Shown: positions 36,151-56,289 of the stretch, in pieces
Position numbering within the stretch: the first letter of the stretch is position 1
Layout of the letters: each line of letters starts with the position of its first letter
From: an archaeon
Lineage (GTDB): Archaea; Thermoproteota; Nitrososphaeria; Conexivisphaerales; UBA164
Direction: 5' to 3'
NCBI GenBank assembly: GCA_021792955.1
Contig: JAJYTP010000001.1
Span: 67,044-131,043 of the forward strand
DNA: 64,000 nucleotides
Notes under the pieces: generated by a model
Told to the model about the DNA's origin: nothing
Seen by the model: the letters and a program-made list of their open reading frames with translations, nothing else
Databases searched by the model: none
Program-made: the position numbers and the translations under genes

Positions 36151-36315
36151 TCCGCCGATATGGTTCAATTCCGCCCCTCTCGGTATGTCCATCTGGCCGG
36201 GAGTGATATAGATTCAAAGTACATGGCCATTTAAGAGGGACGCGGGGCCAAGCCGCAATTCCGCCCGATCCGTTCCCCCCGATGTCATGAGCAGAGACCA
36301 ATGGAGCTTAAAAGT

Positions 36316-36759: not shown

Positions 36760-36859
36760 TAATAAATATTATACATACAGTAAATATTTTTATAATGGTA
36801 CATATAATAGCTACTAAATGTTGCCCGGCCTTTTAAGCGTTTTACCGCACGAGCCCCTC

Positions 36860-37489
36860 ATGAACGGGGACGACGGCTTTTATACCGATGGCAGGGGCGT
36901 TGACGGCGAAGCGCCGCCGGACTACTCGCAGATCCTTGACCATCCGATCGGCCGGACGCAGAGGCTCATTTTTAACAGGTATCATGCTTCAGCCGAGGCG
37001 GAACTCCACAATGAGGCAGATAGGCTGGCGACTATGCTCGGCGCCCACAGCTCCTGGGTCGAGCGCGTCGTGCAGGCGGCAAAAAGGGTAGACAAGGGGA
37101 GCGCTATGTTGAAGGTTGTCGTCGGCGCATACGTGGAGGGCAGCCATCCAACCGATGAAGTGGTGCGTGCCGCCCATGAGCTGGGCATGATGGATATAAC
37201 TGGATATGACCTCTTCAGGATCGTCAATCACAACCGCAGCGGGTTGAAGGTCCCGCGCAGGTCCGTCGCAGACCTGTACCCGCTTGCCAGGATACCCAGC
37301 GTGGTGGCCGACCTGCAAGCCCTGGGTCCGCACGTATATGATAGATTCAACACGGTATACGCCGGCTGGATCAGGAGGGTGGAACTGGAGCACAGCGGAT
37401 TGTCGCCGAAGACGGTGGCGAGGATGGCGCTCAAGAAGGCGGCAGATGAGTTTGGCATCCCGGTTGATGCGGAGGAGGCGTTCTGCTGA
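36860..37489 (+). CDS. possible highly divergent TFB (TFIIB)-like cyclin-fold protein
   Basis: Internal layout resembles TFB core: AEAELHNEADRLATML...; KVPRRSVADLYPLARIPSVVADL; YDRF...GLSPKTVARMALKKAADEFGIPVDAEEAF. No zinc ribbon. Start chosen at ATG 36860, 27 bp after CTTAAAAGG-type box. Confidence 0.35.
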   Translation: MNGDDGFYTDGRGVDGEAPPDYSQILDHPIGRTQRLIFNRYHASAEAELHNEADRLATMLGAHSSWVERVVQAAKRVDKGSAMLKVVVGAYVEGSHPTDEVVRAAHELGMMDITGYDLFRIVNHNRSGLKVPRRSVADLYPLARIPSVVADLQALGPHVYDRFNTVYAGWIRRVELEHSGLSPKTVARMALKKAADEFGIPVDAEEAFC

Positions 37490-37490
37490 A

Positions 37491-38477
37491 ATGATAGAAT
37501 ATGTGCCGCTGGAAAAATGCAGGATAGACGAGCACTTCATGATGCGCTTGGACTACAGCGTAGACTCCCTTGCCGAAAATATACGTGCCAATGGGCAGCT
37601 CCAGCCCGGGATGGGTTACAGGAATGACGACGGGGTCGTCATGGTCTACATAGGGATCAGGCGCTTCATGGCCGTCAGGAAGCTGCACGAATTGTATGGT
37701 GCGCCGGATACATTTTACGTTTCGATAGTCCCCAGGCCGGACGAGGCGAGCATGTGGAGCCAGGCTATAGGCGAGAACGAAGAACGACAATCGCTGACCA
37801 TGCTGGACAAGCTGAACGTGGCAGGGACGGTCCCGGTGGCGGTCCTCGCTGCCGCGATAGATAGCCACATAATTAGAAAGCTGATCGAAATCAAGAAGGC
37901 CATTGGCCATGACGGGATGGTCGATTGGCTGCACATGGAACAGATGGCCGGCGGTAATCTCTCCCTCGCACAGATGGAGGCGCTCGTCAGACACCTGCCG
38001 GACCGCTGGTCAAGGGACGTGGGCGCGTTCATCGTCGTCAGGGCACATTACACCACCGGTGCGGCGCTCGGCGACAATCTGCCCCGGCTGGTGGCCAACT
38101 ACAGCCTTGCCGATGCGCCCGAGGTCGCTGAGTATCTGGTGGCACATGGGGTGGTGAAACCAGGCATGAAGCCCGCCACCGTGAAGCCGGCCGCAAGGGA
38201 TGCTGGGTCATTTATGAAATTCGTCCCTGTGAAGCCGGCACAGGGAAGCACCACCCATGAACGAAACTGTGAAACCCAGGGGTCACACGCCCTTCAGCCA
38301 CCAAAAAAGGCCGGTGATGAAGAACATGAGGGAGATGATGAACGAGCACAAGAAGTGGAGGACAGGGAGGAAAGCCTGCCGGTTGTACTGGTGGACCCGA
38401 ACGAAAAGGATGGCCAGATATACACCTGCGCCTGTGGGCGAAAGGTGAGGTTGCATGTGCAGCGGTCTCGCTCCTGA
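37491..38477 (+). CDS. ParB-like nuclease/partition domain protein
   Basis: IEYVPLEKCRIDEHFMMRLDYSVDSLAENIRANGQLQPGMGYR...YIGIRRFMAVRKL; ATG at 37491. Confidence 0.75.
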   Translation: MIEYVPLEKCRIDEHFMMRLDYSVDSLAENIRANGQLQPGMGYRNDDGVVMVYIGIRRFMAVRKLHELYGAPDTFYVSIVPRPDEASMWSQAIGENEERQSLTMLDKLNVAGTVPVAVLAAAIDSHIIRKLIEIKKAIGHDGMVDWLHMEQMAGGNLSLAQMEALVRHLPDRWSRDVGAFIVVRAHYTTGAALGDNLPRLVANYSLADAPEVAEYLVAHGVVKPGMKPATVKPAARDAGSFMKFVPVKPAQGSTTHERNCETQGSHALQPPKKAGDEEHEGDDERAQEVEDREESLPVVLVDPNEKDGQIYTCACGRKVRLHVQRSRS

Positions 38478-38664
38478 AACGGTTCTGCTGATACTCATTC
38501 AGAGGGACGGCCTGCTATTTCGCCCACATGATTTTATCAAACTCGGATATTCGAAGTGGCAGTATCAGCGTGCGATCAAGAAGCTGCTGGCTGCCGGCCT
38601 CATCAAAAGGCTTGGCAAAGGCCAGTATGTGGTCGTGCCTGACCCTTTGGTCGCATTGCGATAA
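38455..38664 (+). CDS. small winged-helix DNA-binding protein
   Basis: 69 aa, FIKLGYSKWQYQRAIKKLLAAGLIKRLGKGQYVV. Confidence 0.6.
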   Translation: MCSGLAPETVLLILIQRDGLLFRPHDFIKLGYSKWQYQRAIKKLLAAGLIKRLGKGQYVVVPDPLVALR

Positions 38665-38850
38665 TCGGGTTGGGGAAGTTGCGCCGTACGCAAACGATAA
38701 TGCGTACTCATTATGGTAGGCGCCACGCGCACCTTTCTTGGTCATGAAACGAGCGAGTATTCCAGCTTTATATGCTACCTCTTTAAATACGCCCCATAAA
38801 AATATTCCAGTATTACTCATAGGACGGTTTGGGCCCCTCATGAAATCGCT

Positions 38851-40596
38851 TCATCGTCTGCCCGTGAGCGTGTCGCGTCTTCTTTTGTTATAGGTGCCGA
38901 CCTCCCTCGCCGCATATGCGGGCCCATGTGACATCCCTATCGCCCCACCTACCGCTGGGAGGCCTGCTTCAGCGCTCCCCAGGAAGCCGTGGTAAAGGGA
39001 ATGGCCAAGGATAGCACGCTTAGACATATGCCCTGCGGCCGCCCGTCCCGCCGTTGCGGCGGCTGCCCCTCCGCCAGCCCCACCGGTTCCGCCGCCTATC
39101 CCAATCAGCGACCCGGCCGTACCTAAAGCACCAGTGCCAAAGCCCATGTACACGGCCGAAGCAACTGACCCAGCCGACATGGCGATCTGCGAAGTGGTCT
39201 GGTAGACGGTCGCGGTCAGCGGTGCCAGCACGGTTGGCGCCAGTATGGCCACTATCACGGCCGCAGCCGCCATCCACTGGGATGGTATGCCGGCCTGGAC
39301 AAATATGTTGCCACCGGCGTTCCAGTTAGCCAGTAGTGTTCCGGCCACGCCCAGCATGACAGATGAAAGGACGGTTGCGAGGATCAGGCCGAACAGCGTA
39401 TCCTCTATTATCCTGCCGAGCTTCTGGGTGAATGGGATGTCCCTCAATGCCACTGACAGCGGAAACATGACTATCATCCCCCCGATCAGAAATATCCTGA
39501 CCGTCCCGACCAGGTACATCATTATCGTTACAACCATAGCCACTATGAAATAGGCTATCGCCAGCACGGTACTTGTCAGGTCGTTTATCAGGCCCCCGGA
39601 GGCCGGCTGGATGATGGAGGTGTACACATGGCTGAGCGCGACGGTGTAGGAAGGGGCCGGGTTCGGATAGGCCACGATGGTCTGGTTGAGGAGGTTCAGC
39701 AGCTCGGCAATGTGGTCGTATATGAATGGAAATAGCAGGATCACGACGACCCCTATTGCGACCCTGGCAAGGGCGCTGCCCGGGGTCGGCCTTTCGCCCT
39801 TCTGAGGCATGAAGAAGATGAAGAGGATGGAGGCTACAAGCGCTATCAACGAGACGACCAGCAGGAGGTTGAACACGCCACCCAGGGGGAGCGTGGGCTG
39901 TGTTGCAGTGGAGTTGGAGACATATGCTCCCAGCATCGGATCGTTGAACAGAGGCAGGGCGACTATCGTAGTGAAGAGGTTAACTGCAGTGGATGGGCTT
40001 GTGCTCGTGGATGCAGTAGCGAGCAGGCCGCCGTCGGCGGACTCGGCCTCAACGTTTATGATGAAATACTGCGGAGAGGACCTGGAAAAATATACCACGA
40101 AACTTGCCGATTGGCCCGTGTGGTAGGGGTTGCTGAAGGAGATGGGTGCCGTTGCGTTGAGCATCTCCGACTGGCCATTCACGTCCCCCATGTAGAATTC
40201 CGTGGCCGTGCCCGACAGGTAGACCGGCGCCGGCTCAGTATAGTAGGTTGTGCCGTTCTCAACCGTTGTGCTTTGGCCGTTTCCGCTCGTTGTAGCGTTA
40301 GTGCCCACGATATGGCCAGAAATTACCACGTACTGGGTGGTGGTCACGGTGTACGGTCTGGATGAATAGGTGACGTAGTTGCCCGAGATGATCACCGTGC
40401 CTTCAGCCCACGCCCGCAGCCCGTTCTGCGGGCTTCCGCCGCCGCCGGAGGCGTTAGTAAGTGAAAGCGTCACCGTGCCCGAGGCCTGCGGCGATGCAAA
40501 TACGGGCGCTATGGCCGTGGCCACGAGGAGCGCTAACAGGAACAGGTAGGAGAGGTCGCGGTAGGTCCTTGCTACCCTGAACGGCATGATCTTCAT
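38851..40596 (-). CDS. VirB6/TrbL/CedA-like polytopic membrane protein
   Basis: signal peptide, extracytoplasmic Ser/Thr-rich domain, 6-8 TMs, Gly/Ala-rich C-terminus; T4SS-like gene context. Confidence 0.6.
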   Translation of the reverse strand: MKIMPFRVARTYRDLSYLFLLALLVATAIAPVFASPQASGTVTLSLTNASGGGGSPQNGLRAWAEGTVIISGNYVTYSSRPYTVTTTQYVVISGHIVGTNATTSGNGQSTTVENGTTYYTEPAPVYLSGTATEFYMGDVNGQSEMLNATAPISFSNPYHTGQSASFVVYFSRSSPQYFIINVEAESADGGLLATASTSTSPSTAVNLFTTIVALPLFNDPMLGAYVSNSTATQPTLPLGGVFNLLLVVSLIALVASILFIFFMPQKGERPTPGSALARVAIGVVVILLFPFIYDHIAELLNLLNQTIVAYPNPAPSYTVALSHVYTSIIQPASGGLINDLTSTVLAIAYFIVAMVVTIMMYLVGTVRIFLIGGMIVMFPLSVALRDIPFTQKLGRIIEDTLFGLILATVLSSVMLGVAGTLLANWNAGGNIFVQAGIPSQWMAAAAVIVAILAPTVLAPLTATVYQTTSQIAMSAGSVASAVYMGFGTGALGTAGSLIGIGGGTGGAGGGAAAATAGRAAAGHMSKRAILGHSLYHGFLGSAEAGLPAVGGAIGMSHGPAYAAREVGTYNKRRRDTLTGRR

Positions 40597-40639
40597 GTTT
40601 AGTCATGTCACCCTTCCTTTTAAGGAAGGCAGACATTGG

Positions 40640-40760
40640 GTGTCGTGCTTCCGTGGCTCATATGGCGATCGTTCCCAGCGATTCGCCATGGAAGCACATA
40701 ATGTCACACGTGAAAACCACGGATGTCCCACGTTTTTTGAGTGAATGTCACACGGAACAA
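40640..40760. repeat. iteron array plus hairpin (candidate origin/partition/regulatory site)
   Basis: ATGTCACACG 40701, ATGTCCCACG 40723, ATGTCACACG 40745 (22-bp period); flanking GTGCTTCC...GGAAGCAC and ATGGCGA...TCGCCAT inverted repeats. Confidence 0.75.
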
Positions 40761-40773
40761 GCATTCAACTAAC

Positions 40774-40809
40774 TAAAAAAATAAGGAAGGTGTGAAAGAA
40801 CACACCTTA
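40774..40809 (-). terminator. intrinsic-type terminator hairpin
   Basis: minus strand AAGGTGTG-TTCTTT-CACACCTT followed by CCTTATTTTTTT, directly after the 40807 stop codon. Confidence 0.7.
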
Positions 40810-41253
40810 CGTTGGATATCTCGACAGGAACTTGTCGCCTTCCCCTGAAACGCTGTACTTCCACTTGCCAACCACCATGTACCTCTTGGCCTTGATCTGC
40901 TCAAGCAACCCCTGCAGAGGCCTCATGCTCTCAACAAGTTTGCCATCCTTTTCCGTCCTGAAGGTCCATTGACTGCCCCCCTTTCCATTCTTCCAGTCGA
41001 GGGCATTTAACATGCTTTCGAACATCATGGGTGAGTTGTCAGTTGGTGCCATACCTGTTGACTTTGCGATCTCCTTCTCTCGGTAGTACAGGGCCGCTTT
41101 CAGGTCCTTGATAGCGACGGCGATTATCTCGGGCGGGGTGTCCCTTGGCATGTGGTCTTTCACCGTCCTGTATAGTTTTGTGAATTCGTCTACATAGTTC
41201 TCTGAAAACTTCTGTTCCTCGCTTGTTTCCTCTTCTTTCTTCTCTTCGCTCAT
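40807..41253 (-). CDS. hypothetical element protein
   Basis: 148 aa, charged N-terminus, own CTTAAAAGG promoter box upstream. Confidence 0.6.
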   Translation of the reverse strand: MSEEKKEEETSEEQKFSENYVDEFTKLYRTVKDHMPRDTPPEIIAVAIKDLKAALYYREKEIAKSTGMAPTDNSPMMFESMLNALDWKNGKGGSQWTFRTEKDGKLVESMRPLQGLLEQIKAKRYMVVGKWKYSVSGEGDKFLSRYPT

Positions 41254-41505
41254 TGTGCCCGGTCATGGCGTCCCGGACTTAAAAGGTCGGAGGGCCATCC
41301 TGGTCATGTTGCCGGCCATGGCGCCGTACACATGCTGGAGCGGGCGCGCCGGAGTTGCCGGACTGAAAATAATAAAACTGAGGAAAGAGGATGAAGTAAT
41401 TATTACTCCTATAGTGGATATGTTATGTGATAAGGGAGTGATGTTGGCCATGGCAGTGCACCTAACCGGTGGTCCAACGGGGCCAAAAAATTGAGTATAA
41501 GCTGG

Positions 41506-42471
41506 TTACATATTTACAGCGTCTATAACGTGTTCTATCCCGCTTGGATAGTCCCCCTGGCCCGTCATGTAAGGGTAGAGCACTACCTCATCAGCCCCGG
41601 CGTCAAAGAATCCTTTGATCTTATTTTCGATCTCCCCGCTGGTACCGTATATCATAAGGTCATCGACCATTTTCCTGGGCACGTGCTGCATGGCCGCGTC
41701 GATGCCGGCGGCCGCGGCGGACTTGACCGCTTCCACGGTTTTCCCGTATCCTAGCCTTTTGAAGTTATCTCCGAAAGCGGGGTAGGTGCAGTATTCCGCT
41801 ATAGCCCTCCTAGCCTTTTCAAATGACCCATCGCCCTCTGCGACCGTCAAGAAGTAGCCTATGACCCTTGCGCTGGTACCGGCCTTATCGGCTATCCTCC
41901 TTGCCTCGCTCATATGTTCAGCCGTTGGAAGCATCACCAGCACGCCGTCCGTGAGCCCTGCGGCAAGCTCGATCGCCCTTGGCCCCATGCCGGCAGCGTA
42001 TACCGGTATCCTGGACCTTGGCCTCAGATACAGCTCAAACCCGTTTACGTTGAAAAGCTTCCCACTGAAGGTGCATCTGCCGGTTCTGAGGAGCTCGTTA
42101 ATTATGATGAGCGTTTCCCTCAGCCTTGTAATTGGCCTATCGGAGCTGATAGTCTCAGCGTAGCCCATCGGCGCGACCCCGGCCCCTATGCCAAGGGAAA
42201 AGCGGCCGTCCGACAGCAGGGATGTGGTCGCCGCGGCCATCGCTATAGTTGTGGGAAGCCTCAGGTGGGAATTGGTTACGCCGGTCGCCACGCCTATCGT
42301 TTTTGTGCTGAGCGCAGCCGCGCAGCTCATTACAAACGCATCGACGTCCTGAACCTCTATGAACCATGCTCTGTTAAATCCAGCCCCTTCCGCCCTCTTC
42401 GCCATCCTGATCAGTTCCGCCGGATCGCCATAACAGCTCAGCGCTATGCCAACCCTTCCATTCAGTCGCAT
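41506..42471 (-). CDS. luciferase-like (LLM class, F420-dependent type) oxidoreductase
   Basis: MRLNGRVGIALSCYGDPAELIRMAKRAEGAGFNRAWFIE...GIGAGVAP; start moved to 42471. Confidence 0.88.
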   Translation of the reverse strand: MRLNGRVGIALSCYGDPAELIRMAKRAEGAGFNRAWFIEVQDVDAFVMSCAAALSTKTIGVATGVTNSHLRLPTTIAMAAATTSLLSDGRFSLGIGAGVAPMGYAETISSDRPITRLRETLIIINELLRTGRCTFSGKLFNVNGFELYLRPRSRIPVYAAGMGPRAIELAAGLTDGVLVMLPTAEHMSEARRIADKAGTSARVIGYFLTVAEGDGSFEKARRAIAEYCTYPAFGDNFKRLGYGKTVEAVKSAAAAGIDAAMQHVPRKMVDDLMIYGTSGEIENKIKGFFDAGADEVVLYPYMTGQGDYPSGIEHVIDAVNM

Positions 42472-42795
42472 GAACACGAAAACAGCTTCATTTTTATAAG
42501 CGTTGTGTGGAATTTTCACCTGTAACCCGGCTGCAACGATGTCCATGGTCTTCTCCATCACCAGATTTACGACCATTACGGTTGGACCATCGCCAGGCCC
42601 GCGGATATGCCGAAGCATGACCGTGACGGAGCACTGTTGGAAGGGGGCACGGTCCTGGGCCACTCCTTCCTGAACTCCTGGACGGATGAGCTGCAGGGGA
42701 TGAACTGAAGCAGTCCCTTGATTCATGATCGGCAGCATTACGCGGCGGAGAAATATCGCCAAAAGGGTTATCAAACCCGGCCATAAAAAATCACA

Positions 42796-43383
42796 GTGGG
42801 CCATATGAGCGCCGTGGTCGAATTAAGGGCTGAGTACGACCTGATCAGGACCATGATGGGCGTCCTTTCCAGGATGTGCGACCTCATGGAATCGGGGGAG
42901 GCCGTTGATACGGAACAACTTGATCAGATGCTGGATTTCATTGTAGTATTCGTAGATAAGTGCCATCACAGGAAGGAAGAGGAGGTGTTCTTCCCCAGGG
43001 TGGTCGCCATGGGGCTTCGAGAGCCGGCGGTGATAGACGCGTTCGTCTACCAGCACGACCTGTTCAAGGAATACATAAGCGAGCTGAGGGCCGACGTCAG
43101 GGAAAGGGAGAAGGGAGGGGACTGGCCCCAGCATAGGTTCATTGAAGTGGCCAGGGATTACATATCCCAGCTGACCGAACACAGTGAAGCGGAGGAGGAC
43201 GAGCTGTTCGCCGTCGCTGGATCGAATCTCAGCGAAGATGAAAATGGGAGGCTGACCGATGAGTTTGAAAGGCTTGAAAGGGAGGAGGTGGGGGAGGGCG
43301 AGCACGAAAGGTACCGCGAGCTTGCGAGCCGCCTGGCGGAGATGTTCCCACCGGGAGGCGCGCGTGGCATGAAGGAGAGCTGA
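42796..43383 (+). CDS. hemerythrin (HHE) domain protein
   Basis: LRAEYDLIRTMMGVL, FVDKCHHRKEEEVFFP, HDLFKEYI, TEHSEAEEDELF. Confidence 0.85.
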   Translation: MGHMSAVVELRAEYDLIRTMMGVLSRMCDLMESGEAVDTEQLDQMLDFIVVFVDKCHHRKEEEVFFPRVVAMGLREPAVIDAFVYQHDLFKEYISELRADVREREKGGDWPQHRFIEVARDYISQLTEHSEAEEDELFAVAGSNLSEDENGRLTDEFERLEREEVGEGEHERYRELASRLAEMFPPGGARGMKES

Positions 43384-43391
43384 AGGGCAGG

Positions 43392-43937
43392 ATGGCTGGG
43401 CCGGCCCCGAGGACGATATATGCCATAGGCTACTCGACCATGTCCATCGAAAGGTTCATGGTCATACTCCGGGCTCACGCGATAACGCGGCTGGCGGACG
43501 TGCGCACGGTTCCAAGGTCGAGTTACAATCCATCCTTCGATGGGGCCGCTTTGGCCGGATCCCTGAGAGGGGCGGGCATTACATACGTACATCTGAAGGA
43601 GCTGGGGGGATTAAGGCGTCCCCTGAAGGGCTCGGTGAACGTGGGCTGGAGGAACGCCAGCTTCCGGGGCTTCGCTGACCACATGGGGACCGCGGAGTTC
43701 GAGAGGGGGCTGGAAGGGCTCATCAGGATGGGGGAAACGGGCAGGGCCGTTATGATGTGCGCCGAGGGAAATCCCTTCAGGTGCCACCGCTCGCTCATAG
43801 CCGATGCCCTGACGGTAAGGGGGATACCCGTGAGTCATATTTCGAGCGGGCTGCCGGGGAAGCTGCACAGGCTCACCCCATTTGCCGCAGCCAACGGATA
43901 CAGGATAACCTATCCCACCGAGGGCCCCAGGATATAG
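43392..43937 (+). CDS. DUF488 family protein
   Basis: TIYAIGYSTMSIERFMVILRAHAITRLADVRTVPRS...LGGLR; CAEGNPFRCHRSLIAD. Confidence 0.9.
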   Translation: MAGPAPRTIYAIGYSTMSIERFMVILRAHAITRLADVRTVPRSSYNPSFDGAALAGSLRGAGITYVHLKELGGLRRPLKGSVNVGWRNASFRGFADHMGTAEFERGLEGLIRMGETGRAVMMCAEGNPFRCHRSLIADALTVRGIPVSHISSGLPGKLHRLTPFAAANGYRITYPTEGPRI

Positions 43938-44024
43938 TGAGGGCAGGGAACGGCCATCCTGCGGCCCTGTAACCGGGCGCGCCCGAAGGGCCATTTATAA
44001 ATGGCCATGTTTACCTAAGACGCG

Positions 44025-44663
44025 GTGGTCACGATGAACAAAGGCCTTCCGATCGTGCTGTTAATAGCGGCAGTGACGTTCGGGGCGCTCGGATGGATGC
44101 TTGCCACTAGCCCTTACCTTTTTTCGATAGAGCTGCTGGCCGGCATGGTTGCCGTGCCGCTGGCCATAATGACGGTGCCGAGTTTGCTCATAAACGAAAT
44201 GAGACGACTTGTGAACGAAGGACAGCAGACGATAAACCGGAACGCCCAGGCAGCTGAGATCAGCAGGAACGCCTACGTCAAATGCCCCAGCTGCGGCAGC
44301 GAGGAGTTAATTAAAATGGAAAACGGCAGGGTGATGATACCATATGAGGACGCCGACTACGCAATGATATCGGGAACCGATTACTTTACGTGCGCGAAGT
44401 GTGGAATGGTGATAGGTGATGTGGCGATCTCGCAGACGCTCCCCGTGGCCGGCAGGGACTATATTCACTGTGAAGCCTGCGGCAGCACGGAGTTTTTGTT
44501 AAACACTGCTACACCGGTAAAGGTGCGTAACGGCGACAGAGGCGTCGAAGACATCGGAAAAACCATCTCTACCCTGGTCTGCACGAAGTGCGGGCACCCA
44601 TTCGATGAACCCGTCGAAGCGAAGCCAGCCGGCGGGCAGGTGCAGACTGCCGCCAGCGATTGA
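44025..44663 (+). CDS. membrane-anchored multi-zinc-ribbon protein
   Basis: two TMs then CPSCG/CAKCG, CEACG/CTKCG Cys pairs. Confidence 0.7.
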   Translation: MVTMNKGLPIVLLIAAVTFGALGWMLATSPYLFSIELLAGMVAVPLAIMTVPSLLINEMRRLVNEGQQTINRNAQAAEISRNAYVKCPSCGSEELIKMENGRVMIPYEDADYAMISGTDYFTCAKCGMVIGDVAISQTLPVAGRDYIHCEACGSTEFLLNTATPVKVRNGDRGVEDIGKTISTLVCTKCGHPFDEPVEAKPAGGQVQTAASD

Positions 44664-44664
44664 C

Positions 44665-46584
44665 CTAGGCCGATACGTCCTTTGGCCTTGTCGTGAATGC
44701 CGCCAGTTCGGACTTTGCAAGCGAGTTGAAGAATGGGATGTGGCCTTCGGGCGACAGGAGCATTCCCTGCCCTGTCCTCGCGTTCAGCACGAACCTCCTG
44801 TCCTCGGGCGACAGTGCCATTTCGTTTGCGAGTATATCCGTAGCCGCCGTGTCCTGCTTCAGTATCACCTTCGTTGCGCTGTTCTGGAGCATGGCCTTGC
44901 CGGGCCCGGTCATCATGTCCGATACCTGCTGGGTGGCTATGAAGAACGCCGTGTTGTAGTGCCTGCCGGTCCTGGCTATTTCGGGCACGTACTCAACCGC
45001 CATGGGGAAGTAGGGCCTCCCCGTCTTCGGGTTGTCCTCCACGAACGCCCATCCTTCATCTATCACCACCGCCTTGCAGGCCGATACCGGCAGGGACCTG
45101 ATGGTGCGCCACACCCTTGCCAGCACCAGAAAGGCCACGATATCCCTTGTGGTGCGGTCCAGATCGTAGAGGGAGAAGACCATGCGGTCCCACATCTTCA
45201 GTTCGCCACGGAAAAGGTGGTCGAACGGCTTCAGCTCGGCGCTGAGCCGCTTCTCAAGCCTGGATATTATAGTAGCGGATGACGGATCACCGGCCGGCAG
45301 CGAAGCCCTCCTTGCCTCGAGCTTCTCCATAAGCTCGTCCAGGTCCTCTGCGCCCTCTGCCGCCATTCGGAGTTCGTCCTTCATTTCGGGCTCATCCACC
45401 CCCGCCAGCTCCTCCACCACCTGCGCGGCCTGCCTTCCCTCAAAGATGGAGAGCGGGTCAAGGTAGGTGTCCCCTTTGAAGTCAAGCACCTTCGCGCCGA
45501 TCATGGAGGCGAACGAGCCTTCATAATTTCCATCCGGGCCGACTGAATATTCGGGCTTTGCTATGGAGTCGAATATGTAGATGTACGATTCGTCATCCTG
45601 GGCGGCCAGGCGGGATACCCACGACTTGATCAGGGTGGACTTGCCTGCGCCGGTCTGGCCCAGGATTGATACGTTGTAGTTTTTCCTGTCGAAAATATCA
45701 TACAGCAGGACGTTACCGGTCTGCAGGTTCTGCCCGAGCATTACGCCTTCTGGGTCTATGAGGTCGAGGCCGGAGAACGGGAAGAAGGCCAGCAGCGTGG
45801 AGGTGGGCGCGTAGATCAGCCTTCCGAGCGCCCAGGACGGGCCCGCCCCTTCGTACATGGCCCTCTGCAGCCCGAGCGGTGAATCGACCAGGCCGCGAAG
45901 CTGTGCCAGGAGCGCCTTCTCCTTCGAGAGCAGCTCGTCATCGTCCTTTGCCCTGAGCACGATCGTCACGCGGAACATGAACAGTTTTTCGTTCCCGGCG
46001 GCTATGGAGTTTGCCGCCCTCTGAGCCCCATCGGCCTCGAGCACTGCTGAAGGGTCCACTGCACGGGCGTCCTTCTCCCTGAGCGCTATCTTCGACCTCA
46101 TCATGTAGGCGTGGGACATCGCAAGCTGCTTCCCATTCTCGACCGGGCATATCGTTATCCTGATTTCATGTGCAAAGGGGTAGAGGTCGGTCAGGAAGCC
46201 GGTGTTCATAGCGTTTGAAAGGGCTACCAGGTTCCAGCATTCGACAAAACATCCATCTTCGTCCACCATGAAGCGCCGCACGTTGGACCTGATCTTCAGC
46301 AATGGGACCGACGGCACCTTCACGAACTTGACCCTCATGTCCATCAGCGCGTTGTCCAGCGGTTCATCGCTGGAAATAAAATAACGCTTGTATGGCTGCC
46401 TGTATATTTCATCCCCGAGCGCGGCCTGCCTCACGTCTTCAATTATCCTGATTTCGACCGGCTCAAGAAGCGAGTTGAGAAAATCGGCATAGTCGTCGAG
46501 CACCCCCGCCGCCTCCTCCTGCGGCAGGTTGAACAGGTTTATCGATCGGAGCTCATAGGCGTTCTTCATCATATCACCTCGCAT
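44665..46584 (-). CDS. VirB4/TraC-like conjugation ATPase
   Basis: Walker A GQTGAGKSTLIKSW, Walker B AVVIDEGW, IATQQVSD; 639 aa. Confidence 0.88.
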   Translation of the reverse strand: MRGDMMKNAYELRSINLFNLPQEEAAGVLDDYADFLNSLLEPVEIRIIEDVRQAALGDEIYRQPYKRYFISSDEPLDNALMDMRVKFVKVPSVPLLKIRSNVRRFMVDEDGCFVECWNLVALSNAMNTGFLTDLYPFAHEIRITICPVENGKQLAMSHAYMMRSKIALREKDARAVDPSAVLEADGAQRAANSIAAGNEKLFMFRVTIVLRAKDDDELLSKEKALLAQLRGLVDSPLGLQRAMYEGAGPSWALGRLIYAPTSTLLAFFPFSGLDLIDPEGVMLGQNLQTGNVLLYDIFDRKNYNVSILGQTGAGKSTLIKSWVSRLAAQDDESYIYIFDSIAKPEYSVGPDGNYEGSFASMIGAKVLDFKGDTYLDPLSIFEGRQAAQVVEELAGVDEPEMKDELRMAAEGAEDLDELMEKLEARRASLPAGDPSSATIISRLEKRLSAELKPFDHLFRGELKMWDRMVFSLYDLDRTTRDIVAFLVLARVWRTIRSLPVSACKAVVIDEGWAFVEDNPKTGRPYFPMAVEYVPEIARTGRHYNTAFFIATQQVSDMMTGPGKAMLQNSATKVILKQDTAATDILANEMALSPEDRRFVLNARTGQGMLLSPEGHIPFFNSLAKSELAAFTTRPKDVSA

Positions 46585-46796
46585 TCCGTCAGCCTTGTGA
46601 GCTCCTCCTTCAGCCCCCTGATGCCTTCGTCCAGCTGCACAAAGGCCCTGCTGAGCCTTCGCCTATCCTTCAGCGGAAGATAAAGGCCAATATCATTCAT
46701 CATGAAGACCAGCAGCAGGTTGCCGTAGGAGCGCTTCAGCTCGTCGAAGTCCTGCCTGAACCGCATAGCCTGTTTCTCGTTTATCGGCGTCGTCAT
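46569..46796 (-). CDS. small element protein
   Basis: 75 aa from ATG 46796, 25 bp from CCCTTTTAAG box. Confidence 0.5.
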   Translation of the reverse strand: MTTPINEKQAMRFRQDFDELKRSYGNLLLVFMMNDIGLYLPLKDRRRLSRAFVQLDEGIRGLKEELTRLTECEVI

Positions 46797-46819
46797 GGCC
46801 TTACATGCGGTGGCCCCTT

Positions 46820-47137
46820 TTAAGCCGGCTGGATGACCGTCATGTCCAAAATCCGGTTGAACGGAACATCCACACACGGGCCGTCATCTGTCACAATGGT
46901 GAAATTGTTGTCGCAGACTGCAATCACCCAGCCGGAGAGGAAGCGTTCAAGGGGCATATCCGGGTCAAGCATGTCCATCGCGACATGCCTGTTCACGGTC
47001 AGCCGCACCAGTTCCGTTTCGAGCGAAAGTATGTGTTTTATGGTAGTCGTGATTGCATCCCCGTTCCGGGCCATCCTGTTCAGCTTGCCATAGAGGATGT
47101 CGATGTTGTTCAGGATGCGGATGATTTCTCGCGTCAT
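46820..47137 (-). CDS. small element protein
   Basis: 105 aa, overlaps stop/start with neighbour. Confidence 0.45.
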   Translation of the reverse strand: MTREIIRILNNIDILYGKLNRMARNGDAITTTIKHILSLETELVRLTVNRHVAMDMLDPDMPLERFLSGWVIAVCDNNFTIVTDDGPCVDVPFNRILDMTVIQPA

Positions 47138-47736
47138 TTCTTCGCGCCCTCCAGGAGGCCTATGCCCAGGCGGGGCTTTATGGTGACCTTCACCCGCTCG
47201 ACTTCATCGGAACCCACTTTGATGGCCAGCTCGTGCGTCCCCACGCCATAACCTCCGGGGCTGAACAGCAGCCTGTACCTCGGGCTCGCTGGCGATACGT
47301 TCATCGAGGCCGACTCAATGCCGTCCACGACCAGCACAACCTTTGTGGTTACGCCCACCTGGGCGCTGCCTGAGAAGCTGATCGGCACGTCGCTGTCCGC
47401 GAACATCTCCTGCGGGGCCTCCTCCCTGAGGACCTCGGGCTTACCCTTTCTGACTGCTGGCGCTTTACCTTCATTGTTATTTCTAAACATGTACAGAAGC
47501 TGAAGCTCGGGTGGCACCATCCTGACCCTTATGCTGGCCATGAGGATACCCACGAGGACCAGGAGGCCGAACGCGCCCAGCTTGAAGATTATGCCTGGGA
47601 ACGGAATGGATGCCAGCACCCCGACGATTAGGAAGAACCCGAATATCACGAACTGCCTCACCGAAAGCATGAAGCCAAACAGTGGCATCCCCCTTGCCTC
47701 CCACTTGCTCTCCTTCAGCCACCAGATCAGGTCCAT
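47134..47736 (-). CDS. T4SS-associated membrane protein (VirB3/PrgI-like position)
   Basis: two N-terminal TMs and C-terminal beta-rich domain; upstream of VirB4 in same operon. Confidence 0.5.
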   Translation of the reverse strand: MDLIWWLKESKWEARGMPLFGFMLSVRQFVIFGFFLIVGVLASIPFPGIIFKLGAFGLLVLVGILMASIRVRMVPPELQLLYMFRNNNEGKAPAVRKGKPEVLREEAPQEMFADSDVPISFSGSAQVGVTTKVVLVVDGIESASMNVSPASPRYRLLFSPGGYGVGTHELAIKVGSDEVERVKVTIKPRLGIGLLEGAKK

Positions 47737-47780
47737 GAACTACCGTACATGAAGAATTTAAAAGGACAGAAAAAAAGAAT

Positions 47781-48176
47781 TCACCGCTTGGATCCATACA
47801 GCTGGAGCAGCGAAGCGGCAAACTCGATGCCGAGGAAGATGGCCACGGCCAGCGCAACCAGCGATATAAGGTCGTTCATGATCGTGACCATGACGGACGG
47901 AAAGGCGGGCGAAGAGGCGATGCCGCCGTTGGCCGTTGAGTTTATCCAGAAGTAGGACACGCCCGATGTTATTCCGTAGCTCGAAGCACCGGGGGTTGCC
48001 GACGTGATCTGGAAGATACCGTAGGTGATGCCGGGCGCAAGGCCACCACCGGCGGAGAACGCAGAGCCCACTATCCAGATTATGAAGGAGATGATGAGCG
48101 GCACCAGCAGGGCGATCACCATCAGGGTTCCGTAGTTCTTCACCTTTTCCAGCGCGGACGACTGTTCGGAGGTCAT
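47781..48176 (-). CDS. small two-TM protein, candidate VirB2-like pilin
   Basis: 131 aa with two hydrophobic helices; first gene of T4SS operon. Confidence 0.45.
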   Translation of the reverse strand: MTSEQSSALEKVKNYGTLMVIALLVPLIISFIIWIVGSAFSAGGGLAPGITYGIFQITSATPGASSYGITSGVSYFWINSTANGGIASSPAFPSVMVTIMNDLISLVALAVAIFLGIEFAASLLQLYGSKR

Positions 48177-48506
48177 GCCAGCACATGTGAAGGCCGTTTA
48201 AAAGGACAGATATCAGGCCAACTTCGACGGCCTGTGTGAACTACACGACCCCCGTGGCATGGCGACCTTCGGCTTCATAATATACCGCATCGCAATCCAT
48301 TCAGAGAATGGCTCTACAAATATATGCTCCTTGATAGGCCCGTCGTGATGGTGGGCGGCTATATCAGTACAAGGCTTCCTAAATCGTGGTAGCAGTGTTT
48401 TATGGCTTATAACCTTCTTTCCATACTCTCCCCTGACTGATGCGATGTATGAGAGGGATTCGAGTTGGCCAAAGCGTATAAACTGGACCGGCCTATGTGT
48501 ACTAAT

Positions 48507-48812
48507 ATGACCGAAATTCATGATACAGGCCTTGATGACCGAAAGCGCAAGCTTGGCGAAAGGAACCGCGGCAGCCCTCTCAATCACGGCCTCCTCGTCG
48601 CCGGCATCATAATGATCACGAGCGTGTTCTACCTGCCCCGCATTTCCCTGCTTGACGTCATAGTTATTCTCGGTATCATACCCTTCGGCTGGGGCCTTAT
48701 GGGTGAACTCACGGACCTGCTCGACCTCGATTTGATTGCTGCCTTCGCGATATCGATATTCATCACTTTGATTTTCATTGTCGTTATATTTTTTGCTGCG
48801 GGGCTACTCTGA
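48507..48812 (+). CDS. small membrane protein
   Basis: three hydrophobic segments; TATAAAC box about 27 bp upstream of ATG 48507. Confidence 0.45.
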   Translation: MTEIHDTGLDDRKRKLGERNRGSPLNHGLLVAGIIMITSVFYLPRISLLDVIVILGIIPFGWGLMGELTDLLDLDLIAAFAISIFITLIFIVVIFFAAGLL

Positions 48813-48914
48813 ATCTGGGGATTCTAAGGCTGTAGCTATGGCGGACCTCCTCCGCAGTAGGAATGACATAATGAGAGGAGTACCTTATTAGCAGTAGACA
48901 GCCATCTCGATGGC

Positions 48915-49135
48915 ATGCCTAAGGAAGTGGTTGTCACAGGACGGGGACAGACGACCATACCCAAGGAGTACCGGCAAAAGCTGGGCATCAGGGAGGGTCC
49001 AGGCTGAAGGTTGATATCGAAGGTGAGAAGGTCACGTCCACCAAGGTGCCATCGCCCTTCGAACTGGCTGGAACGAGCAAATTGAGCAGGGAGGAGGCCT
49101 ACAGGCGGCTCGACATGATGATGGAGAAGGGCTGA
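48915..49135 (+). pseudogene. frameshifted AbrB/VapB-type antitoxin
   Basis: MPKEVVVTGRGQTTIPKEYRQKLGIREG then frameshift near 49000, continuing RLKVDIEGEKVTSTKVPSPFELAGTSKLSREEAYRRLDMMMEKG*. Confidence 0.8.
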
Positions 49136-49179
49136 TGCTCTTCGACAGCCGGTACTTCTGGGCGGTATTTGCAAAGTGA
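49135..49179 (+). pseudogene. truncated VapC-like PIN toxin N-terminus
   Basis: ATGA overlap with antitoxin; MLFDSRYFWAVFAK* only. Confidence 0.55.
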
Positions 49180-49288
49180 CACGCAAGGAACCCCATACGC
49201 TTTAGCCGTGGGTAGTTGACGGACGACCCTCATTTTACAGAATTCGAGACGGTATAGGTGTGAACCAAAAGCATAGGCCGCGAAACAT

Positions 49289-50563
49289 TCATTGCCCCAC
49301 CATCAGCGGCCACAGGTCGGGCGCCGGCGTGAGATTCAGCTGACCATACACGCTTGCAAGCGCCTGTTCATAGTGCTCGATGTCGCCGGATAGCAGGACG
49401 TGGGTCTGACCGTTGTAATATACCAATTCAAAGGATCGAGGAATGTTCGAAGCCAGGCCGGCGATCCTCGCCAGTTCATCCTTCTCCAGGGCCCTGTCTA
49501 GGCGGGGGACGCTAGACACCTCCATGACCGGCGCATTAACCCCCTCGTTAGCCTGGGAATTCCATGCAGACAGCACCGGCAGCTCCGCATGCACCCCCCA
49601 TTTTATGTTGCCCATGGATGGAAAGTGAATGAATGACGGGAGGTTGCTGGCCGCTATTACAAATGCAGGCGCCTCCGTCCTGCTGCCCGAATAATGGGAG
49701 AAGTACGACGCAAGTTTGATTTCCCTGCGCCTTTCGTGCATAAGCACAAGCATGCGCGGGTCCACGACATTGAACACGGAGAGCTGGTCAAGGCTGTCGG
49801 CACAATGGCTGAACGGCAACTCATGCAAACCATGCTCTTCACCGGCCCATATGCCACGGATCGCCAGCGCAACCGTTGGCTGAGACATCATGGCGTTGAG
49901 CGCCTTTACCCGCTCTGGCGCCATCTTAACCCACGTCGAGCCGTCATCGGCTTCGTGCAGAAGGCCATAACGAAGCGACGCCAGACTGTCTGTCACGTTG
50001 ACGCGCCAGAAGACGAACTGAATCCATGCAAAACGGGGTGACTGCGCCTCCACCGCCAGCACGAGCGAGTTCATGAACGAACCCACCGGCTCGTAAACCG
50101 GTTGCGACATGAAGTGCGCATCCCTGAGCGATACGTAGAACATGTGAAGGTCGTCCATCCTTGCCTCCTTCGAGCCGGGAGCTGGAATACCCTTCACCCT
50201 TGGGAAGCTCATGACCCCTTCACGAGGGTAGTTGAGGGTCATGGTTTTGTATGACATGGCGGGCGGTCCGAGGAACCAGATCATAGTCACCATGATAGCG
50301 ACCGAAGCCGATATCTGGACGGCGACGAAGGTCCAGATCGGGTAAATGGATAGATCAGCGACTAGGGAGACGACGATGCCGGCCACGGCAAGAAACGGCA
50401 TCAGGCTGCGGCCCTGTTTGACCCTGTACGGCAGCTTCAGGTAGCCGAACACGTCGTTCCAACCTGCAGGCCTGCCGCGAGGGTGCAGGAACCGTAACAG
50501 GTCACGGCGATAAATTATATAATAGAACAACCCAAGCGCAGGGAAAGGGAGCCACCAGAACAT
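49289..50563 (-). CDS. membrane protein, likely conjugation component
   Basis: N-terminal TMs and large soluble domain; divergent from the VirD4-like gene; CTTAAAAGG box 25 bp upstream. Confidence 0.55.
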   Translation of the reverse strand: MFWWLPFPALGLFYYIIYRRDLLRFLHPRGRPAGWNDVFGYLKLPYRVKQGRSLMPFLAVAGIVVSLVADLSIYPIWTFVAVQISASVAIMVTMIWFLGPPAMSYKTMTLNYPREGVMSFPRVKGIPAPGSKEARMDDLHMFYVSLRDAHFMSQPVYEPVGSFMNSLVLAVEAQSPRFAWIQFVFWRVNVTDSLASLRYGLLHEADDGSTWVKMAPERVKALNAMMSQPTVALAIRGIWAGEEHGLHELPFSHCADSLDQLSVFNVVDPRMLVLMHERRREIKLASYFSHYSGSRTEAPAFVIAASNLPSFIHFPSMGNIKWGVHAELPVLSAWNSQANEGVNAPVMEVSSVPRLDRALEKDELARIAGLASNIPRSFELVYYNGQTHVLLSGDIEHYEQALASVYGQLNLTPAPDLWPLMVGQ

Positions 50564-50599
50564 GAGAACATATTACGGACGCGCTTAAAAGGTGTCAAG

Positions 50600-50803
50600 T
50601 CAATCGAAATTCACGAAAGCTGGCTTTGCGCCTTTTCTGCCCAACTTCGGTGATAAATGCTCCGCGAGCCATTTTTCATGGTCGCAGAGGAATCCTATGT
50701 TCAGCATGCCGTTCTCCGATGTACCGTGTTCTCGTATTGGTGCACCGCACCACCAGCACTCCAGCTCCTTGTCCTTTGCCAGGCCTTGCTGCATTTTGTT
50801 CAC
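50600..50803 (-). CDS. small zinc-finger-like protein
   Basis: 67 aa, CWWCG...FLCDHE; GTG start 50803 (alternatively ATG 50794). Confidence 0.45.
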   Translation of the reverse strand: MNKMQQGLAKDKELECWWCGAPIREHGTSENGMLNIGFLCDHEKWLAEHLSPKLGRKGAKPAFVNFD

Positions 50804-50854
50804 TTATGGATGAGTATGAAGGCGGCCTTAAAAGGTGATGTTATACAATGTCAC

Positions 50855-52972: not shown

Positions 52973-52986
52973 TCAAAATATTTTCA

Positions 52987-53433
52987 TTATGAAATTGCCT
53001 TTTTGATCAGTTCTCTTAATCTTTCATCAACTTCCTCATTCCATTCCGGTAGTGCAAATGCGGTGGGCCAAAGCGCTCCATCATCCAAGTGTGCCTTGTC
53101 GCTGAAACCTATTGTGGCGTACCTTGTCTTGAATTTACCTCTTTCTTGGAAAAAACAGATGATCGATTCATCCTTTTCATAAGCTGGCATACCGTACCAA
53201 GTTCGTGGCGTCAGATTAGGTGCTATCCTTTTTATCAGTGCGTGTATATTAGTTGCAATCGTCCGATCAGGTTCATTCATTTCTGATATTTTTCTAAAGA
53301 CTTCTTTTTCTAAATCCTCAATCTTTGGTCTAGCGCTCCTCTTTCTGATGGAGGCTAACTCCTTTGATCGCTCAGCCATTGCCTTTTTTTCCTCATCTGT
53401 AAACCCAGCATTGGCATTTTCTTTTGTTTCCAT
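52987..53433 (-). CDS. DUF1801-type protein
   Basis: IHALIKRIAPNLTPRTWYGMPAYEKDESIICFFQERGKFKTRYATIGFSDKAHLDDGALWPTAFAL. Confidence 0.8.
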   Translation of the reverse strand: METKENANAGFTDEEKKAMAERSKELASIRKRSARPKIEDLEKEVFRKISEMNEPDRTIATNIHALIKRIAPNLTPRTWYGMPAYEKDESIICFFQERGKFKTRYATIGFSDKAHLDDGALWPTAFALPEWNEEVDERLRELIKKAIS

Positions 53434-53541
53434 TGTCTCACTTATTTTTCTAGTCTAAATATATATAAGAATTTACTTTCAAAGTGGCATAAATACTGTA
53501 TTCGCTTAAAACTTTAATCAAATACCACTTGACCCGATCAG

Positions 53542-54159
53542 TTAGGTCGGAGCCGTAACGAGCTTCGATTGCACGGCAGTCATATTCCCTTCGAGGCGGG
53601 CCTTCAGCCTGCCGAACGTGGAGTCGTTGATCTCGTATGCCGTCACGTTCCGCCCGCTTTGGATGCATGCCTCGATTGTCGTGCCGCCCCCGGCCATGGG
53701 GTCAAGCACCAGGTCGCCTTCCTTCGTGAACGCTCCGATCAGCCGTCTCAGCTCGAGGGCGCTCTGCCCCCACCTGTGGAACCGCTTGTCCTCACCGCTG
53801 CCCATGATCGTATCATGAATGAACCCATGCCTGGCCTTTGGCGGCTTGAAGAACACAAGGACGGGCTTCCACATGGTGCGGAGCGTATACACCTGCTGTC
53901 CCTGTTTCAGCTGAAGCGACATGGTCCAGTAGTATGACAGCCACTTCCCAAGGCCGGCCATCTCCATGTCAAGATGCGATTGGCCGGCGTAGGCTATAAG
54001 CCAGCCGCCGGGTTTCAGAACCCTCTGGCCGAGGGCACCGAGGGCGTCCCACAGGTACATGTATTTTTTGCCGTATGGAGGGTCGGTCAAAATCAGGTCA
54101 ATTGATTCGGCCTTTATCTGCGCCTCCCTGAAGTCGCAGTGGTAAAGCTCAACGGTCAT
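53542..54159 (-). CDS. DNA (amino)methyltransferase
   Basis: LILTDPPYGKKYMYLW (DPPY) and LVLDPMAGGGTTIEACIQSGRNVTAYEI SAM motif. Confidence 0.9.
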   Translation of the reverse strand: MTVELYHCDFREAQIKAESIDLILTDPPYGKKYMYLWDALGALGQRVLKPGGWLIAYAGQSHLDMEMAGLGKWLSYYWTMSLQLKQGQQVYTLRTMWKPVLVFFKPPKARHGFIHDTIMGSGEDKRFHRWGQSALELRRLIGAFTKEGDLVLDPMAGGGTTIEACIQSGRNVTAYEINDSTFGRLKARLEGNMTAVQSKLVTAPT

Positions 54160-54208
54160 GCTCAGACATGCAAAATGGGCTTAAAAGGAAGCAGTAGCAT
54201 CGAACATC

Positions 54209-54661
54209 ATGAGGCTCATCGCTCACGACATCTTCGCCTTCGGGCTCGGCACATATGTCCTAGCCCAACTCGGCGCGGGGATAGCCTCTTCGGCCGCACT
54301 GGCGTTCTTACTTTCTGTGGCCGTGAACCGGATAATAGACGCGGGGCACTACCAGAAGAAAGGGCGCCCTGCCCGTTCCCATCTAACTCATTCTGTCTTC
54401 ACGGCACCGATCTGGGGGCTTCTCGTAGGGCTGGCAATTTCGTCCATCGCGCTATTTGTTCTTCATGTTGACCTTCTGCTCCCTGGTGCCATTGCGGGCA
54501 CGCTGGCTGCATTTGCACACCTCTTCCTGGATTCGCTTACAGAGGGCGGCGTGTTTCTGTGGAAGAAACGGATGGCCCTGGCGCACTTTAAGTACAACAA
54601 CGGCCTCGCGAACGGGCTCGCGATCATGGCTGGGGTGCTGATGCTGGTCGCCGCCGTCTGA
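54209..54661 (+). CDS. DUF1286-like membrane protein
   Basis: HDIFAFGLGTYV..., RSHLTHSVFTAPIWGLLVG, HLFLDSLTEGGVFLWKKRMALAHFKYNN. Confidence 0.75.
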   Translation: MRLIAHDIFAFGLGTYVLAQLGAGIASSAALAFLLSVAVNRIIDAGHYQKKGRPARSHLTHSVFTAPIWGLLVGLAISSIALFVLHVDLLLPGAIAGTLAAFAHLFLDSLTEGGVFLWKKRMALAHFKYNNGLANGLAIMAGVLMLVAAV

Positions 54662-56209
54662 TCATCCGTACTTCTCCCTGTAGAACCTCTGGATGGCCAC
54701 GGACACGTCCGCATATTTGTAGGCACCAGACTTGACGATGGTACTGAGGTACTTGGCGCGCCTTTCCAGCTCAGCCGCAAGCTCAGCCTCGTTCCATCCC
54801 TTCAGGGCCGCCACGGTCTGAAGACGGTAACTTTTCCGTGCGACCTCCAGTGGATCGGTCGGCATGATCAAATCCTCCCTTGCATTCCACCTGAACATAT
54901 CGATCAGCTCTCCCCTCATGCCCACCTCCTTTGACACCAGCGCCCGCCTCACCACGCTCCCGTCCTCCCTCCTGATCCGGTTCATCATGAGCAGGGACCA
55001 CATCAGCATCAGGGAGGCGTTGCCGACGTTCAGGGGCGGTGCGGCCATCCTGACCAGCGCGGCCTCCGGCGAGTCCGCGTGGAAAGAGCTGAGCGCGCCG
55101 TGCCCTGTAGAAGCGGCCTGGAACAGCGTCGATATCTCCTCGCCCCTCGCCTCCCCCACGACTATGTAATCCGGCCTGAGCCTGAGCGTCAGCTTTGCAA
55201 GGTCGAACAGGGTGACATCATAGCGTGCGTCCGATGAAATAGAATAGGAGGTGCGTGAATGAAGCCGCTCCCAGTGCTCCTGCGGGATCAGCAGCTCGGG
55301 GGTCTCCTCAACGGTCGCTATCTTGAGCGCCGGGTTGATCAGGGTGATCAGGGCGTTCATGGTGGTCGTTTTGCCAGACGCGGTTGGGCCGATCACCAGC
55401 ACGAACCCCTTCTCCTCCACTATCATCCAGTAGTAGGCGGCCAGCAGCGGCGAAATAGTCCCGGCCGCCACCAGGTGGCCGATGGACAGCGGCTCCCTTG
55501 GAAACTTTCGCATGTCGAAGGTGGAGCCCGGCAGCGATATTTCGTTTGAAAGGGTGGCGGCCAGCCTGTGGTTCTCCTTAGTGATGGCATCCACAAACGG
55601 CACCGACGTGGTGATGGCCTTTCCTGCCTTCTGGACGAGCCTCTGAACGTACTTCTTGAGCGTCTCTTCATCGCCAAACATGATGTTCGTATCAAGCCAG
55701 TCGAACTGCGGGTAACGACGGTGCACTGCGGCTAAAGGCACGCCGAACCCCTCACAGGAGATCTCCTCAATGTCGTCATCCCTCACAAGGACATCCACGA
55801 CCCCGTAGCCGACCGAATCCCGCATTATGTAATATTTCAGGGAGTTATAGGATTTCTTGACCTCTTCCACCGCGCCCAGGTCCTCGGCGGCCTGCCAGAT
55901 GAACTGGTCCACGTAGGCGGCCGGGTCCTCGGTTTCGATTGGCTTCAGCGAATAGTAAAGGGATTCCATGAGCAACGAATAGAGGCCCTGTTCGGCCTCG
56001 GACAGGGGCGGCTCCTGCACGGAATACGTGTGCTTCTCGCCGCTGTCGGCGATCATCACGTGCGCCTTCCCCACATCATATTCATCGATTATGGCCCCGA
56101 GGACGGCGGCGGTCAGGGGCCGGGTGCGGAAGGCGAGCGATCGAGTGGCCTTCTTGGGTGGTGACCTGACAGGGAACTTAAGGGGTAACTTGACAGAAGA
56201 TAACTTCAT
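54662..56209 (-). CDS. VirB11/GspE-family secretion ATPase
   Basis: VIGPTASGKTTTMNALITLINPALKIATVEETPEL, LRPDYIVVGEARGEE, STGHGALSSFHAD. Confidence 0.93.
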   Translation of the reverse strand: MKLSSVKLPLKFPVRSPPKKATRSLAFRTRPLTAAVLGAIIDEYDVGKAHVMIADSGEKHTYSVQEPPLSEAEQGLYSLLMESLYYSLKPIETEDPAAYVDQFIWQAAEDLGAVEEVKKSYNSLKYYIMRDSVGYGVVDVLVRDDDIEEISCEGFGVPLAAVHRRYPQFDWLDTNIMFGDEETLKKYVQRLVQKAGKAITTSVPFVDAITKENHRLAATLSNEISLPGSTFDMRKFPREPLSIGHLVAAGTISPLLAAYYWMIVEEKGFVLVIGPTASGKTTTMNALITLINPALKIATVEETPELLIPQEHWERLHSRTSYSISSDARYDVTLFDLAKLTLRLRPDYIVVGEARGEEISTLFQAASTGHGALSSFHADSPEAALVRMAAPPLNVGNASLMLMWSLLMMNRIRREDGSVVRRALVSKEVGMRGELIDMFRWNAREDLIMPTDPLEVARKSYRLQTVAALKGWNEAELAAELERRAKYLSTIVKSGAYKYADVSVAIQRFYREKYG

Positions 56210-56289
56210 GCAGAAGGATATGAAATTGGCTTAAAAGGCAAGCAAGGAACCTGCTATCATTTGTGAGTCTGACTACAGGAAAGACGCCC

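Follow-up and report, generated by a model that had tools for sequence, protein, structure and literature searches.

Which promoter serves the genes of a mobile element integrated in an archaeal chromosome, and which factor reads it? The question is posed by a stretch of 64,000 nucleotides of contig JAJYTP010000001.1 from a member of the Conexivisphaerales (the window, meaning the whole stretch analysed), in which an integrated conjugation-type element repeats one short box upstream of its genes. The box falls into a sequence class that is well supported in the element family: TATA boxes at a fixed distance from the start codon, without an A-rich B recognition element (BRE), flanked by G or C and often shared between genes. 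We favour, with moderate confidence, the explanation that the box serves this element family as the TATA element of a distinct core-promoter class and is probably read by an element-encoded TFB together with host TBP and host RNA polymerase. Start codons being the predicted ones throughout, the boxes lie as follows:

36829-36837, + strand: CCTTTTAAG, centre 27 nt before ATG 36860
40616-40624, - strand: CTTAAAAGG inside CCTTCCTTAAAAGGAAGG, centre 24 nt before ATG 40596
41278-41286, - strand: CCTTTTAAG, centre 29 nt before ATG 41253
46816-46824, - strand: CTTAAAAGG, centre 24 nt before ATG 46796
47757-47765, - strand: CCTTTTAAA, one mismatch, centre 25 nt before ATG 47736
48197-48205, - strand: CCTTTTAAA, one mismatch, centre 25 nt before ATG 48176
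50584-50592, - strand: CCTTTTAAG, centre 25 nt before ATG 50563
50827-50835, no strand: box common to the divergent starts 50803 (-) and 50855 (+), 28 and 24 nt away
54180-54188, no strand: box common to the divergent starts 54159 (-) and 54209 (+), 25 nt from each
56230-56238, - strand: CCTTTTAAG, centre 25 nt before ATG 56209

A sequence-only reading of this DNA had listed all ten as the same box; eight are exact copies of CTTAAAAGG (minus orientation at 36829, 40616 and 46816, plus orientation at 41278, 50584, 50827, 54180 and 56230), whereas those at 47757 and 48197 (TTTAAAAGG) each differ from it by a single base. The spacing given by the same reading holds as measured, with box centres ~24-29 nt, and mostly 24-25 nt, from the start codon. 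Read in gene direction, most sites (36829, 41278, 47757, 48197, 50584, 54180 and 56230) have the form CCTTTTAA[G/A] followed after 20-24 nt by the start codon, and the genes starting at 40596, 46796 and 50855 are preceded by CTTAAAAGG, 19 nt and ATG.

All eight exact copies in the window fall inside 36829-56238, the remainder being free of them, and shuffled sequence gives an expectation of 0.46 copies with a maximum of 3. A count over the whole host assembly (1.17 Mb, 73% complete) likewise sets the element apart, the density of its 37 exact copies predicting 0.56 for the element against the 8 observed (P = 1.5e-7). Position is equally distinctive: at -22 to -30, the 9-mer or its TTTAAAAGG variant precedes 7 of the 17 element genes whose upstream region is clear and 8/586 host genes (p=2e-8), so that equal frequency before host genes was not seen. 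The box had been called element-wide; the strong enrichment agrees with that, but six element genes lack the box (36316-36759, 41506-42472, 42805-43383, 43392-43937, 44034-44663 and 52987-53433). Carriers of the 9-mer in host DNA (~700 kb sampled) comprise one gene for a thioredoxin-reductase-like and one for a luciferase-like protein, two further genes and four pilin genes.

The last of these belong to contig C53 of the same genome (G000, L059:6377-9102), where four of 4-5 pilin-like genes have an element-type box, one box being common to a divergent pair, and where the cluster adjoins a type I restriction-modification system (read by eye). Since pilin-like genes are included in the elements of the relatives G005 and G012, C53 is possibly element DNA, and the cluster is probably a fragment of the window's element or of another one.

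How far the element's promoters depart from those of the host was examined by calling genes in ~700 kb of the own genome and in DNA of relatives, both host and element, and by learning upstream motifs separately for the two sets. In the own genome as in G012 and G005 the motifs differ, the host motif being an A-rich BRE followed by TTTAWA, in line with the varied TATA boxes earlier ascribed to host genes, and the element motif being [G/C]CTTWWAAG without an A-rich BRE. In a neutral-core test, which superseded a stricter nucleotide rule, a perfect TATA-like 6-mer near -25 was chosen first and its flanks were compared afterwards, with data pooled over three genera. An A-rich BRE (at least two A at -5 to -3 upstream of the core) accompanies 5/44 element cores against 126/230 host cores (p=4e-8); G or C adjoins both sides of the core in 32/44 against 35/230 (p=8e-14); and the centre lies within 0.5 nt of -25 (-24.5/-25.5 from the start codon) in 37/44 against 79/230. 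For the window's element alone the flanks are distinct (6/8 versus 16/148, p=9e-5), the BRE comparison (2/8 versus 82/148) not being significant (p=0.14).

Base composition upstream of genes is nearly equal between host and element in G012, where a BRE (at least two A) is found in 14/33 host and 2/19 element cases, so that the promoter difference is not a GC effect. Element cores vary among TTTTAA, TTAAAA and TTATAA; at the level of sequence, what stays invariant is a TTWWAA core flanked by G/C and lacking a BRE, rather than the 9-mer. The stricter rule had given mixed results (own genome p=4e-6, G005 p=2e-4, G012 p=0.04; G016 and G003 not significant), and a cross-genome position weight matrix score alone separates element from host modestly (area under the curve 0.60, log-ratio 0.76), perhaps on account of element genes without a box of their own.

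Orthologous genes in other genera, at 45-59% protein identity, retain both core and distance. The core is kept before VirD4 in L011, G012 and G005, before the 47134 gene in G016 (where the box itself is conserved), G012b and G005, before VirB11 in G003 and G005, at DUF1286/VirB4 in G012 and before the methyltransferase in L012. In the sister species G002 (L181) the VirB11 box is intact despite diverged surrounding DNA, and in the sister G001 (L179) the box before the TFB-like gene is intact with the same spacing. A dedicated promoter class, as had been proposed, thus stands as a statement about sequence, by enrichment, spacing and repetition in other genera, but the exact 9-mer is not exclusive to the element; nor is the leaderless position an element speciality, host genes placing their TATA box there too.

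A further property of the class is its use between divergent genes. One box lies between divergent starts 48-49 nt apart in five element pairs and in one more at the edge of the G005 element, the arrangement of the 54180 box being found also in the elements of G012b, G005 (twice, plus the edge pair) and G003; that at 54180 recurs in L012 and that at 50827 in L011. With the edge pair reassigned to the element, divergent pairs sharing a box number 6/40 in elements against 3/308 in host DNA. The shared boxes have a BRE on neither side, and G or C adjoins the core on both. Direction is normally set by contact of TFB with the BRE (PMC7289017), and in vitro a pair of starts 49 bp apart was obtained from one archaeal TATA box (PMC6640164). 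Its near symmetry would let a single copy of the element's box serve a divergent pair; a near-palindromic box without an orienting BRE could direct transcription either way, and we infer that bidirectional use fits the missing BRE and the symmetric flanks.

If the box is a promoter of its own class, a matching factor might be encoded nearby, and TFBs do occur in the elements. Matches to PF00382 (cyclin repeats) above cut-off lie inside elements G012a, G012b and G003, the reading frames of these proteins also showing an N-terminal Zn ribbon (CxxC...CxxC), and a TFB profile search adds element TFBs in G349, G332, G199 and G095. The two G012 proteins are 61% identical to each other versus ~36% to host TFBs, and the host recognition stretch TEVTIRNRYKGL, near-invariant in canonical TFBs, is changed in the element copies. 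A TnpB-like gene (by eye) lies near the element TFB of G012 element a (L016:15495-16706). The window's candidate is this gene:

36860-37489, + strand: 209 aa, candidate TFB-like factor of the element, its gene opening the ParB operon and its family encoded at the corresponding place in most relatives

A Pfam search with this protein gave no match, and the N-terminal Zn ribbon is absent from this short form. In long forms of the family a Zn ribbon is present, and these match TFB at a probability of 93%, 12 control families giving ≤4%, and short and long forms constitute one family with 97% probability. Searched against all PDB sequences, a five-member family profile retrieves nothing but cyclin domains of TFIIB (one protein in six entries, E ~0.2-1.3), and a nine-member profile again retrieves TFIIB, but with an ankyrin protein top-scoring. 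The protein is more likely than not, if unproven, a distant TFB-like protein. The long forms (L166/L167, L168/L169, L170/L171, L172/L173 and L021) have a domain inserted between two helical parts; L021, the one tested, matched no Pfam family above cut-off.

In the mechanism that would follow, the 6-bp TTWWAA core, with C on its left, G on its right, no A-rich BRE and its centre ~25 nt before the start codon, would be bound by host TBP and host RNA polymerase, an element TFB-like factor replacing or assisting host TFB and so making a BRE unnecessary; transcription would begin at or within 1-2 bases of the start codon. The reader would be a clear TFB in several relatives and the 36860-37489 protein in the window. 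A wider proposal, which we hold only tentatively and at somewhat less than even chances, is that a family of conjugative elements with its own TFB-type factor and matching BRE-less symmetric promoter forms a semi-orthogonal transcription system, the archaeal equivalent of phage sigma factors, in which the whole element would be switched on at once and divergent genes would be read from single TATA boxes.

Several observations pull the other way. A few ordinary host genes bear the identical 9-mer at the same position, and host machinery is thus probably able to use the box. G005 has a strong box but just one full TFB by hidden Markov model, so that the box can do without a recognisable element TFB unless a protein of the 36860 type takes that role. 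Lacking the Zn ribbon, the 36860 protein resembles TFB weakly (4-20% probability), and the match of the long forms depends mostly on the ribbon, falling to 4-7% once it is removed; comparisons of the short forms with TFB by hhalign and HMMER were weak. The single-sequence AlphaFold model of the 36860 protein is poor (pLDDT 52), and Foldseek with that model returned nothing significant; its non-significant matches are headed by haloacid dehalogenases, with the cyclin-fold proteins TFB, TFIIB, Rb and Orc6 among the others. Finally, the motif is indistinct in single f11 elements (20% of pooled genes) and in G003 and G014, expectation-maximization runs on single f11 and f10 elements being uninformative.

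The foremost alternative is that the ordinary TBP and TFB of the host read the boxes, which would simply be strong TATA boxes without a BRE, the element having adopted one compact, symmetric form, with element TFBs acting otherwise or in trans. The same box at -25 of some host genes, the presence of TTTTAA and TTAAAA among host TATA cores and the view that archaeal viruses use host TBP and TFB (PMC5569661) would all sit well with it; yet three genera show the same systematic loss of the BRE, mobile elements usually profit from strong BREs, as in the early promoters of SIRV2 and SSV (PMC11065993), and TFBs recur inside the elements, so that we consider it unlikely, although the strongest of the alternatives. 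The box might also double as an operator, an element repressor on palindromic CTTWWAAG blocking TBP and silencing the element, with the G/C flanks as its contacts. Their symmetry, the RHH-like (ribbon-helix-helix), ParB and winged-helix proteins that the element encodes and the frequency of RHH repressors in archaeal viruses (PMC5569661) lend this some colour, but the RHH-like gene's own promoter is box-less, whereas such repressors usually autoregulate, and the core varies as that of a TATA box would; we judge it improbable.

That the difference merely follows GC content, the element being richer than the host, is rejected: the composition-matched G012 pair, in which host promoters keep their BRE, largely refutes it and leaves it very improbable. 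Chance or misread coordinates, to which the two boxes that are off by one base might point, are refuted by density, position enrichment and conservation in relatives and have next to no probability. Reading by an element-encoded TFB remains the explanation to which we return.

The carrier is an integrated conjugation-type element, for which conjugative transfer is predicted from its genes: VirB4 and VirD4 are identified by Pfam, and VirB6 from topology and gene order only. At 36150, precisely where a tRNA gene has its 3' end, DNA identity to both sister species (G001 and G002) breaks off, and identity to G002 resumes on the right at 58376; the element is therefore taken to be ~22 kb long, and GC climbs within it from ~51% to 54-60%. 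Its features, with its flanking tRNA, are:

36048-36151, + strand: tRNA gene, probably intron-containing tRNA-Met (identity by eye; ARAGORN made no call), the integration site
36151-58375, no strand: integrated conjugation-type element, approximate bounds from the breakpoints at 36150 and 58376 versus G002
36316-36759, - strand: small regulator, RHH-like by eye, box-less; 34-78% homologs in relatives, no Pfam match
37491-38477, + strand: ParB-like protein (TIGR00180 E=1.8e-5, below cut-off), gene order kept in relatives
38455-38664, + strand: winged-helix protein (AbiEi_4 E=4e-4, below cut-off)
38851-40596, - strand: VirB6-like membrane protein, polytopic, order conserved, 41-58% in relatives; no Pfam or NCBIfam match
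40807-41253, - strand: conserved element protein, 47% in G016
41506-43937, no strand: box-less cargo (luciferase-like monooxygenase, hemerythrin, DUF488)
44665-46584, - strand: VirB4-like ATPase (TraG/AAA_10 Pfam matches)
46569-46796, - strand: small open reading frame (ORF), 75 aa by translation, upstream of VirB4
47134-47736, - strand: conserved membrane protein, 38-56% in relatives
47781-48176, - strand: small membrane protein with a putative pilin/VirB2-like role, 52-57% in G005 and G012
49289-50563, - strand: conserved membrane protein, 424 aa, 28-32% in relatives
50600-50803, - strand: small Cys-rich protein, GTG start, 56% in L011
50855-52972, + strand: VirD4/TrwB-like coupling ATPase (PF10412 E=7e-14)
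53542-54159, - strand: DNA N6/N4 methyltransferase (PF01555 E=1e-12)
54209-54661, + strand: DUF1286 membrane protein (PF06939 E=8e-13)
54662-56209, - strand: VirB11/archaellum-type secretion ATPase (T2SSE E=5e-31; best NCBIfam FlaI E=1.5e-89, below cut-off)

The right breakpoint carries a perfect 20-bp tandem duplication (58356-58395); a search for a flanking repeat of the tRNA end found none, and no integrase was recognised among the genes of the window's element. In G002 this tRNA is adjoined by a different insertion, with integrase-like and pilin-like ORFs (by eye), and a tyrosine-recombinase-like ORF (by eye) lies beside the RHH/TFB-like/ParB module of G001 (L179:2184-3395). VirB4 was not found in either sister species. 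That these lack the element is nevertheless ruled out, G002 having the VirB11 start region on a contig that shares the right flank, and G001 the RHH/TFB-like region. The cargo stretch (41506-44663) also holds a zinc-ribbon membrane protein and has no element-type promoter, and what is left of a pair of AbrB-like antitoxin and PIN-like toxin, disrupted by a frameshift (by eye), lies at 48900-49200. A paralogue of the 36316 regulator, 82% identical, stands alone in host-like DNA (L054:4898-5290, G000 C65), with similar copies resembling 36316 on G001 C61 and G002 C19. The window's VirB4 is 26-27% identical to those of pNOB8/pARN-type Sulfolobus plasmids and has relatives in 82/400 genomes of the host's class, a scan of viral contigs giving no match.

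Compared with known systems, the boxes share with the canonical archaeal BRE and TATA promoter, to which the host promoters of these genomes belong, an AT-rich TATA ~25 nt before the start codon, a distance that equals that to the transcription start only if transcripts are leaderless; they differ in having no A-rich BRE, a 6-bp G/C-flanked core and tighter spacing. A near-identical promoter that recurs upstream of many genes within a single archaeal mobile element is also known from the early genes of SIRV2 and SSV, but these have a strong BRE and TTTAWATA in common with highly expressed host genes (PMC11065993), and the window's element has no BRE. Bidirectional promoters of Pyrococcus furiosus likewise produce two starts ~49 bp apart from one TATA box (here the distance is between start codons), as BRE-TATA-BRE arrangements yielding mostly antisense RNA (PMC6640164), whereas the element's lack a BRE and serve two coding genes. 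Multiple TBP and TFB sets, such as those of haloarchaea, are thought to give promoter choice through extra TFBs (PMC7289017); here the TFBs sit in integrated conjugation-type elements with promoters unlike the host's. To the Sulfolobus conjugative plasmids (pNOB8 and pARN type) and the Ced and Ted systems (PMC9905601) the element is linked by VirB4 (23-27% identity), a VirB6-type protein and the lack of a recognised relaxase, while differing in its tRNA integration, archaellum-type ATPase, TFB-like and RHH-like regulators and BRE-less promoters.

The BRE is regarded as the orienting factor of archaeal and TFIIB-type initiation complexes. Natural promoters that are BRE-less, symmetric and two-way would, if they prove true, be a ready test of how direction is set. 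Should the element TFBs read these boxes, a mobile element would be bringing its own basal initiation factor, which would account for some of the many unassigned archaeal TFB paralogues. The motif is also a handle for spotting element genes in draft genomes, for example in the C53 pilin cluster.

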